Part shown: positions 5,116 through 12,328 of the stretch, piece after piece
How the letters are laid out: every line of letters starts with the position of its first letter
Numbering within the stretch: the stretch's first letter is position 1
Origin: Bacteroidales bacterium
GTDB taxonomy: Bacteria; Bacteroidota; Bacteroidia; Bacteroidales; UBA932
Assembly (NCBI GenBank): GCA_012744435.1
Contig: JAAYCA010000036.1
Span: forward strand, 20,646-84,645
DNA length: 64,000 nt
Direction: 5' to 3'
Notes under the pieces: model-generated
Databases searched by the model: none
Seen by the model: only the letters and a program-made list of their open reading frames with translations
What the model was told of the DNA's origin: nothing
Program-made: the position numbers and the translations under genes

Positions 5116-6639
5116 CTAAAAGACTGTTATAACTGTTCGCAAATAGGTCGTCAGCTGCGGGGAGCCGCTGTCGGCGACCGTCAGCACCAGGTGGATGGTA
5201 TCGCCGTCCTTCGCGTCTGCAGGGACGGTGACGGAAGTCGCAGCAGCGGAGGGATCAGCCACGGCGACGTCTCCCTGATAGGAGCCGACCTTGTACTGGG
5301 CCCAGCTGCAGGTCAGGTCGTCCCCGTCAGGATCGGAAACGCGGACCTTCAGCTTCAGCGTCTGGCCGGGAGCGGCCGTCAGAGCCAGCGGGCCCTTCAC
5401 GACCGGTTCATGGTTCACGGCGGAATAGTCCGGCGTCGTGCTCCAGGCCATGCGGGCGGCGAAGCTATTCTGGACGGCCGGCACAAAATCCGGCAGAACG
5501 GCATCCTGCGTCGCACGCATGGAGAACGGGGCCGTGAAGCCGGCCTGGCGCTCTTCGGCGGTCATTTCCCGCCGGCGTCCGGCCCAGCCGCCCCATTCCT
5601 GAACTTCCCAGGCCCGAAGGCCGTTGCCGATCAGGTTCAGGTACATCGGGGTGTCGCCCTCGCTGATGAAATTGCCTTCCGGCTGTGGCGGGGACCACAC
5701 CCAGTAGCCTTGCGCCACCAGCTCTTCCGTGGTGAAGCCCTTCAAGCCGAAGTAGTCGGTGAAGTCGCCGGGAGCCATCTGCTTGCCATCGCCCCAGACG
5801 CGGTACATCGCGCCGAAGGGTCCCTGGCTCTTGATCTTTTCGGCCGTCCAGGCCGAAGAAAAATACAGTGTATCCGCCGGATCCAGTACGCCCCGCTTGG
5901 CGCCATAGCCCAGCGAGATGACACCGGCATTCAGGATGATGGACTCGATGTCGGGCCACTCTTTCTGGACGTAATCCCGGTAGGTCTGGTCCTGCTGGCC
6001 GGAGAGGCAGAATTTGGCCTTGGCGGACACCTTGGCCTTGATGGCAGTCCATTCCGGCGTCCCCTCATACTGCTCCTGGATGCTCTTCAGTGCCCGGGAA
6101 GCCGTGCTGGGACCGCCCCAGACCTGGATGAAGACCGGCCGGGGATCATCGTCCAGCAGTACCTGCCTGATCAGGTCGGAGCCCGGCGTATCGTGCTCCA
6201 TTTCGCCTTCAAACCAGACGTTGCCTTCTCGGATGATAGATTTGAGATACTCCGGACTAGGATAGTCCGGGTTGTGCTTCACCAGATTCGGATACACCTG
6301 CGCATAGGCCTCCACATCCTCGTCGATGAATCGCTCCCCTTCCGCCCAGCGCCAGTGGGTCTGCGGGCCCAGGTCACGCCCGGCCCGGGCATATTCACGG
6401 CCCGGGATATACTGTGTCGTGCCCTTACCGTCGCCCTTCCAGTGGAACTGGCTGCTGGCATAGATCAGGCCCTCCGTATCGAAATCGGTGGAGAACAGCA
6501 GATAGCGGATGAGCGAATTGTGGTCATCCAGCTCCGGATCGCAGGTCACGATCACCCGGGGTTTGAGGGGTTCAGCCTGCCGGGAGCACGCAGCAAACAA
6601 TACGGTTACAAGTACTAAAGGGAAGAAGAATCGTTTCAT
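5116..6639 (-). CDS. Sde182-type (DUF1593) nucleoside-hydrolase-like lipoprotein, copy C
   Basis: 507 residues. The N-terminus MKRFFFPLVLVTVLFAACS carries a lipobox (Cys18), so it is likely a lipoprotein. VIVTCDPELDDHNS (30-43) is the Asp-rich motif of the nucleoside-hydrolase fold, followed by HWKGDGKGTTQYIPG and FIQVWGGPSTASRAL, typical of DUF1593, now called the cellulose-binding Sde182 nucleoside-hydrolase-like domain. The last roughly 95 residues (LTAAPGQTLKLKVRVSDPDGDD...) are the Ig-like Sde182 C-terminal domain. The start overlaps the previous stop (TAATG), so translation is coupled with copy B. Family function is not settled; furanoside hydrolysis is my inference from the fold. The domain call is firm and the role open. 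Confidence 0.88.
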   Translation of the reverse strand: MKRFFFPLVLVTVLFAACSRQAEPLKPRVIVTCDPELDDHNSLIRYLLFSTDFDTEGLIYASSQFHWKGDGKGTTQYIPGREYARAGRDLGPQTHWRWAEGERFIDEDVEAYAQVYPNLVKHNPDYPSPEYLKSIIREGNVWFEGEMEHDTPGSDLIRQVLLDDDPRPVFIQVWGGPSTASRALKSIQEQYEGTPEWTAIKAKVSAKAKFCLSGQQDQTYRDYVQKEWPDIESIILNAGVISLGYGAKRGVLDPADTLYFSSAWTAEKIKSQGPFGAMYRVWGDGKQMAPGDFTDYFGLKGFTTEELVAQGYWVWSPPQPEGNFISEGDTPMYLNLIGNGLRAWEVQEWGGWAGRRREMTAEERQAGFTAPFSMRATQDAVLPDFVPAVQNSFAARMAWSTTPDYSAVNHEPVVKGPLALTAAPGQTLKLKVRVSDPDGDDLTCSWAQYKVGSYQGDVAVADPSAAATSVTVPADAKDGDTIHLVLTVADSGSPQLTTYLRTVITVF

Positions 6640-11137: not shown

Positions 11138-12328
11138 CTATTTGAAAAGCAGCGGAGCAAACTCGGACAGATACAGACGCCAGCAGTTCCACACATGGGC
11201 GCCTTCGCTTTCGCGGAAACTCAGGTTCGGCATGCCGAGAGCCTTGAGATCATTGTAGTAGGTCTTGGCGTTCTCGAAACCGAAATCGTCACGGCCGATA
11301 CCGATCCAGTATGCGGAGACGCCATTGGCGATCTGGGTACGGACCTCGTCCATCGTAGCCTTGTTCGCGGGCACATTCTCATCCAACTCGTGGATGCGGC
11401 CGCCTGCGGAGAATACGCCCACATAGTCGAAGACGTTCGGATAACGGCGGGAAATGCTCACGGAATGACCGCCACCCATGGACAGGCCGGCGATGGCGCG
11501 GCCGCACTTTTCAGGGACGGTGCGGAAGTTCTTGTCGATGAAATTCACAATCTCCATGAAGTTGGCGACATACTTGCCCTCGGGATCACGGAAGTGGAAG
11601 GGCTTGTAGTAACCCAGGGAGCTCTCGCCCGGAGCGGCCTGCATTTCGGCATGGCCGTTCGGCATCACGACGATCATCGGCTCGGCCTTGCCCTGCGCGA
11701 TGAGGTTGTCCATGATCTGGACGGCGCGGCCGAAGATGGTCCACTCGTTCTCGTCACCGCCGGAGCCGTGAAGAAGATAAAGAACCGGATACTGCTTGTA
11801 CGGGTTGGCGTCGTACTCGGCCGGAAGATAGACATTCAGGCGGCGGTCCTTGCCGATACCGTAGGAATGATACCACTTCGCGACAAGGGTGCCATGGGCC
11901 ACATCGTTGACCTTGAAGAGGTCGGCCAGGCCGCCTCCCACGATGAAAACGTTCGTCACCGTGGCGAAGTCGCGGTACACGTGCGGATTGTTGGGATCGA
12001 GCACGGGAACGTCGTCCACCAGGAAGGTGTAGCTGTAAAGTTCGGAAGGGAGCGGATTGGAGGTGTAGGTCCAGGTGCCGTCCTTGCCCTTCTTCATGTC
12101 GATCTGGCCGGCACCGACCATGCCGGCGATGTGCTGCTGGACATCCTTCTTGATGAAGTCGCCCGCGATCTGGACTTTCTTGGCATTGGGAGCGATCAGG
12201 CGGAAGGTCACGCGGCCCTGCTCATCCACGGTGCCGGACTCGATGTCCTGGGAGATGAAGAGATTCTGCTGGGCGAAGGCCGTCAGGGCGATGGCCATGC
12301 CAGCGAGAACGGAAAGAATTCTTTTCAT
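11138..12328 (-). CDS. Secreted esterase with N-terminal E-set/CBM48-like domain (esterase 1)
   Basis: 396 residues: signal peptide [21 protein letters not shown]-set/CBM48-like domain (about 35-125, [19 protein letters not shown] ... [18 protein letters not shown]), then an alpha/beta-hydrolase of the esterase D/CE1 kind with [16 protein letters not shown] and GLSMGG (Ser about 283). The C-terminal [11 protein letters not shown] likely holds the catalytic histidine. It is the first gene after the terminator that ends susCD. I see no clear TAnnTTTG motif in the short gap upstream, so it may rely on read-through or an atypical promoter. Likely removes acetyl, malonyl or hydroxycinnamoyl esters to expose the glycan; which one is not visible. 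Confidence 0.88.

Follow-up and report, generated by a model that had tools for sequence, protein, structure and literature searches.

Sde182-family lipoproteins of nucleoside-hydrolase fold as candidate apiosidases in a Bacteroidales gene run

Three putative lipoproteins of the Sde182 family (PF07632), here called SdeA, SdeB and SdeC, are encoded among sugar-utilisation genes in a 64,000-nucleotide stretch of DNA from a Bacteroidales bacterium (the window). We consider it reasonably probable, from sequence, predicted structure and gene order, that Sde182 proteins are nucleoside-hydrolase-fold, probably Ca2+-dependent O-glycosidases that act on plant apiosides and liberate D-apiose. We predict their activity as well as the metal, the substrate and the stereochemistry, and it is synteny that points to apiose release in particular. 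By this reading SdeA is a proposed apiosidase and SdeB a proposed apiosidase or related furanosidase. A crystal structure of a PF07632 protein has reportedly been available since 2011, without a substrate. No activity was found assigned to DUF1593/Sde182/PF07632 in the open-licence literature, a scope that may have missed a recent CAZy-type assignment.

Composition of the gene run

Fifteen consecutive, tightly packed genes occupy the reverse strand from position 22832 to 778 (Table 1), with no intergenic gap larger than 169 bases. They encode a SusC/SusD pair, a RhaT-like transporter, an isomerase, a kinase, a split transketolase, the three Sde182 proteins, a PF01156 protein, three esterases and one GH3 enzyme. 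The SusC/SusD pair and the co-directional degradative genes, assigned by Pfam, together with the short gaps, give the run the makeup of a polysaccharide utilisation locus. The original prediction had listed three Sde182 lipoproteins and a fourth nucleoside-hydrolase-like protein among three esterases and a single classical glycoside hydrolase, and all of these are present, the glycoside hydrolase being the GH3 enzyme, with two of the esterases inside 5116-12328 and one outside. HMM significance rules out chance for these features. Orthologues of the divergent DeoR-family regulator adjoin Sde182 genes in two other loci (L089 and L090).

Table 1. Features of the gene run and its borders, with the basis of each assignment
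Feature	Position	Strand	Basis
Terminator-like hairpin immediately beyond the final gene	730..758	-	consensus match only
PF01156 nucleoside-hydrolase-like secreted protein, fingerprint DNDLCGDGDG	778..1812	-	46.7 bits vs cut-off 34.2
PF00756 esterase; probably starts further downstream, near MKKIFTLASV	1834..2814	-	HMM
GH3	2754..5114	-	HMM; closest solved relatives annotated beta-glucosidase (8IDZ, 2X40)
SdeA: PF07632 nucleoside-hydrolase-like domain + PF21027 C-terminal domain, putative lipoprotein, CDPELDD	5116-6639	-	HMM, PF07632 E=2e-61, PF21027 E=1e-18
SdeB: same PF07632 + PF21027 architecture, CDPELDD	6639-8252, ATG at 8252	-	HMM, PF07632 5e-53
PF00756 esterase, CBM48-like N-terminus	8422..9627	-	closest solved relatives ferulic acid esterases (6RZN, 8BBP); this protein was the only query
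SdeC: divergent Sde182 protein, TDLECDD	9608-11128	-	HMM, PF07632 1e-31
Second PF00756 esterase with CBM48-like N-terminus	11138..12328	-	HMM
SusD-like glycan-binding lipoprotein	12428..14044	-	Pfam
SusC-like TonB-dependent transporter	14025..17114	-	Pfam
RhaT-like sugar transporter	17164..18138	-	profile match
Fucose_iso_C-family isomerase, proposed for D-apiose	18152..19582	-	profile match
FGGY kinase, glycerol-kinase-like; 42% to E. coli AplK	19606..21072	-	profile + alignment
Split transketolase, C-terminal half; 35% to E. coli AptB	21076..22020	-	alignment
Split transketolase, N-terminal half; 48% to E. coli AptA	21993..22832	-	alignment
DeoR-family regulator, divergent	22944..23756	+	Pfam

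Homologues of some of the other degradative genes are also found near Sde182 genes. A 58% homologue of the 1834-2814 esterase adjoins a Sde182 gene in L088, and homologues (37%) of the PF01156 protein sit 1-2 genes from Sde182 genes in other genomes. L235 again has a GH3 enzyme, a PF01156-like protein, an esterase and a Sde182 protein together, and this recurrence suggests that the extracellular genes move as a set. The PF01156-like proteins of the window, of L224 (8032-9081) and of L235 (4696-5724), which come from distant genomes, form a subfamily whose fingerprint ends in Gly rather than Asp (DNDFGGDPDG or DNDLCGDGDG), so that DPDG or DGDG stands where the second Asp pair would be.

The operon sugar and its linkage to Sde182 genes

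Because the isomerase, kinase and transketolase genes are not annotated for apiose in any database, the sugar assignment was tested by gene context, using 80 named loci with this isomerase, mostly from rumen or gut Bacteroidales and Prevotella. Across these loci the order TKa-TKb-kinase-isomerase (TK, transketolase) is strongly conserved. A GH140 gene (PF13204, E=3e-97) lies immediately 3' of the isomerase gene in L128 and overlaps its end, and another lies within ~7.4 kb of the isomerase in L142. Rhamnogalacturonan-II (RG-II) contains apiose, and RG-II enzymes (BT_1020-like, GH127, GH141, GH78, GH28) flank the same operon in other genomes. BT1012, of family GH140, is the known RG-II apiosidase (PMC7939467). 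The reaction proposed for Sde182 is that of GH140, and both share a genomic niche beside the apiose operon, but they are unrelated sequence families. A profile search for GH140 (PF13204) found none in the whole source genome, which is 94.5% complete, so that a copy could sit in a gap.

The ABC-type relatives of the operon (L059, L073 and L079) join SBP-DUF2291-ABC-permease genes to a kinase and two transketolase halves, the same genes as the SE15 cluster of E. coli; identities to that cluster are 46-48% for AptA, 35-39% for AptB and 34-42% for the kinase. E. coli strains with an SE15-type cluster grow on D-apiose (PMC13001218). The window shares split transketolase and FGGY kinase homologues with the E. 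coli SE15 and Pectobacterium cluster (AptA, AptB, AplK), whereas that cluster has SDR proteins instead of the isomerase and no annotated Sde182 or SusCD genes. The original prediction had placed the lipoproteins in a locus for a furanose sugar, and comparative gene context now points to D-apiose. With AptA (48%) and AptB (35%) homologues in the run, D-apiose is very probably the intracellular sugar of the window operon.

The kinase of the window resembles GlpK more closely than E. coli-type AplK, and despite its identity to AplK it scores higher against glycerol kinases. It lies above the NCBIfam GlpK subfamily cut-off and narrowly below the equivalog cut-off (574.5 vs 590 bits), which suggests a glycerol-kinase-derived apulose kinase. 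The isomerase gave no match when queried against the PDB, and in fold family it differs from the TIM-barrel protein encoded beside AptA in L219. Its nearest NCBIfam model is sulfoquinovose isomerase, far below the cut-off. This model and the split transketolase raised a sulfoquinovose (sulfo-TK) pathway, which was set aside because the kinase is conserved and the context includes GH140 and DUF2291-ABC genes. Other Bacteroidota isomerase homologues (43-46%; L055, L056 and L060-L069) lack an adjoining kinase and transketolase pair and probably serve a different pathway.

Sde182 genes are enriched at this operon. The 80 loci hold 16 Sde182 ORFs against ~0.14 expected from Sde182 density in 150 relatives, with Sde182 at 13 of the 60 loci where a kinase or transketolase gene persists versus 0 of the 20 where neither does, and in a phylum-wide sample PF07632 occurs in 4/4 genomes with isomerase and transketolase versus 29/392 others (Fisher P=4e-5), although these figures overstate independence because the loci are related by descent. 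Co-occurrence with the isomerase is uninformative by itself, since many of its homologues lack transketolase and kinase and also lack Sde182.

In all seven loci with RhaT, SusC and SusD (L093, L094, L095, L149, L158, L161 and L165), Sde182 lies downstream of SusD. L161 belongs to a cultured bacterium, Parabacteroides sp. PF5-9. The minimal locus L149 reads DeoR, TKa, TKb, kinase, isomerase, RhaT, SusC, SusD, Sde182, esterase, and its Sde182 protein is the sole candidate glycosidase. Sde182 genes lie within an ABC-type operon in L073, L102 (the same locus as L079) and L117, and one is divergent from the regulator in L059. Two distant genomes are also linked: in L227, Sde182 adjoins permease, ABC, AplK (45%), AptB and AptA (51%) genes, and L219 holds two Sde182 genes, the TIM-barrel isomerase and AptA (53%). 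From 7332 onwards, after AptA, L219 is a masked N run that leaves the remainder of its apiose operon unreadable; an apparent 2556-aa ORF there is an artefact of this masking. Overall, the linkage spans at least four motif subfamilies (TCDPELDD, TSDGEIDD, TDIENEPDD and TDIGGTDPDD) and several operon architectures.

Fold and Asp cluster of the Sde182 proteins

PF07632 and PF21027 both score above curated cut-offs in SdeA, SdeB and SdeC, and none of the three matches PF01156 at E<=0.001. SdeA and SdeB are 49% identical, while SdeC is ~30% identical to both (31% to SdeA). Lipobox-like N-terminal segments, read by eye, end at Cys18 (SdeA), Cys20 (SdeB) and Cys17 (SdeC). SdeB carries a low-complexity Pro/Met/Gly-rich insertion at residues ~375-420 (window ~6990-7130; PGNRPGPAPSTG...MAAMMAMMRGGG) that is missing from SdeA. 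In other genomes, Sde182 proteins of ~870-960 aa, almost double the usual length, are encoded at L117:7266-9875, L075:7738-10443 and L076:6011-8896, with two PF07632 stretches in the L117 protein.

The full-length AlphaFold model of SdeA (pLDDT 82, pTM 0.86) finds 2YHG, from Sde_0182 of Saccharophagus degradans and the founding structure of PF07632, as its best Foldseek match. Because matches of the full-length model were swamped by Ig-like hits to the C-terminal domain, the nucleoside-hydrolase-like domain was modelled separately (pLDDT 75). This model matches 2YHG first; the matches after it are nucleoside hydrolases with few exceptions, and the TM-scores are low (0.3-0.4). Alignment to nucleoside hydrolases with hhalign (probability 78%) pairs VTCDPELDD with IDTDGGIDD and VWGGPSTASRAL with ALGPLTNLAEAI, with the GPLTN-like strand-4 motif among the aligned segments. 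Predicted-structure matches and hhalign thus agree on a nucleoside-hydrolase fold. Sde_0182 contains the same two modules and is the best match in both sequence and fold. The 'cellulose-binding' description of Sde182, carried over in the original prediction, stems from the CBM2 modules of this S. degradans protein, listed as CBM2/.../UNK(577) (PMC2386152). It does not transfer to the window proteins, in which an HMM search found only the PF07632 and PF21027 domains and no CBM2 or other cellulose-binding module, and which lie in a putative apiose locus.

The Asp-rich motifs named in the original prediction are present in all three proteins (Table 1). Loss of the Asp cluster in homologues, which would have spoken against hydrolysis, was not seen: D34, D38 and D39 occur in 41 of the 42 homologues aligned, with a gap in the remaining sequence, and the C-terminal Asp329 is kept in 38, with Glu in the other four, all SdeC-type. 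Asp329 appears from motif and position to be the equivalent of the last metal ligand of nucleoside hydrolases, hhalign having stopped short of it. Glu327 is a possible general acid, although not a universal one (Glu in only 30/42).

Sde182 proteins share with nucleoside hydrolases (PF01156; group I-III N-ribohydrolases) the fold, most of the Asp fingerprint and the GPLTN-like motif, but differ in being secreted lipoproteins with an extra C-terminal domain. The full fingerprint, DxDxxxDD plus His/Trp/Cys before the last Asp, is not found in the 42 aligned homologues. Its last three Asp residues are present, whereas the first is replaced by Thr, Leu or Ser, and Gly328 stands in 42/42 where nucleoside hydrolases have His, Trp or Cys before the last metal Asp. 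In the latter enzymes O2' and O3' of ribose are chelated by the metal, attack by a metal-bound water proceeds with inversion, and the base is activated by a His (PMC8910321). The loss of this His agrees with the inactivity of Sde_0182 (2YHG) on nucleosides reported in that paper, which also cites an earlier proposal that 2YHG is a furanose-interacting module.

In the SdeC clade (SdeC with members in L093, L094 and L095), Glu takes the position of the last cluster Asp and the Glu327 segment is missing; these proteins may differ in specificity or be non-catalytic. The furanosidase interpretation in the original prediction is the best supported one and is narrowed by synteny to D-apiofuranosides. 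Its extension to all four proteins was too generous, given this Glu in SdeC and the Gly in the 778-1812 protein, and with such altered metal sites these two proteins may have another role.

Proposed mechanism and alternative explanations

We propose that the run is a polysaccharide or glycoside utilisation locus whose substrates are plant compounds carrying D-apiose. The sugar would be imported by SusCD and RhaT, and the isomerase, kinase and split transketolase would burn D-apiose via an apulose-4-phosphate route. The esterases would remove acyl groups, the GH3 enzyme probably removes glucose, and the Sde182 proteins would work outside the inner membrane, replacing the missing GH140 by cutting the apiofuranosyl bond. 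A cis-2,3-diol is present in beta-D-apiofuranose, as in ribose, but not in arabinofuranose. The Asp34/38/39/329 cluster would hold Ca2+, which would chelate this diol in the way that nucleoside hydrolases chelate ribose O2' and O3'; metal-bound water would then attack C1 with inversion, and the leaving group would be expelled. An O-linked leaving group would be favoured over a nucleobase because the base-activating His is an invariant Gly in Sde182. An acylated apiosyl-glucoside of the apiin type is a plausible substrate of the locus; RG-II was also considered and is less likely because no lyase, GH28, GH78 or BT_1020-like gene was found in the gene run.

The Sde182 proteins might instead be non-catalytic surface lipoproteins that bind furanosides for SusCD while another enzyme frees apiose. 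What is reported of 2YHG, inactive on nucleosides and proposed to interact with furanoses, fits this idea, and XopQ sets a precedent as a nucleoside-hydrolase-fold protein with an intact metal site that binds ADP-ribose and does not act on common nucleosides (PMC8910321). However, L149, L059 and L073 have no other glycosidase in or beside the operon, the source genome has no GH140, and three near-invariant Asp ligands across subfamilies are unexpected for a pure binder. A binding role is therefore unlikely.

A further explanation is that the Sde182 proteins are furanosidases acting on other sugars of the same substrate (ribosides, arabinofuranosides or galactofuranosides), with the GH3 or PF01156-like protein freeing apiose. 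The family is broad, and most of its genes in the phylum lie away from apiose genes, so it cannot be apiose-only. Three divergent copies in the window suggest several linkages, and the binding protein of the ABC-type loci is closest to ribose-binding protein 2FN8. Nevertheless, direct adjacency to apiose genes recurs across the subfamilies and operon architectures described above, and the metal site of nucleoside hydrolases needs a cis-2,3-diol, which, as a matter of general chemistry, excludes arabinofuranosides. We regard this explanation as improbable. That the operon degrades another sugar such as D-ribose or D-arabinose, making the apiose link misleading, would accommodate the glycerol-kinase-like kinase and the distant sulfoquinovose isomerase match, but is very hard to reconcile with GH140 adjacency, RG-II neighbours and an SBP-DUF2291-ABC-permease-kinase-TK set common to the growth-validated E. 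coli cluster.

Apiose release by Sde182 proteins remains the preferred explanation. The general idea of furanose handling is not new, having been proposed for 2YHG as cited in PMC8910321, but predicting apiose as the sugar, with comparative evidence for it, is new as far as the open-licence literature shows. We lean, with some reserve, towards regarding PF07632 as a new glycosidase family of nucleoside-hydrolase-fold, Ca2+-dependent O-glycosidases that would include non-GH140 apiosidases in Bacteroidota, their cis-diol-chelating site having been re-used from ribosides to beta-D-apiofuranosides. An apioside substrate predicted from independent operon contexts makes the substrate question of the family testable. 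If correct, the proposal would bring the nucleoside-hydrolase fold among the O-glycosidases, add a second apiose-release route besides GH140, and explain the use of apiose from pectin or plant glycosides by those rumen and gut Bacteroidales that lack GH140.
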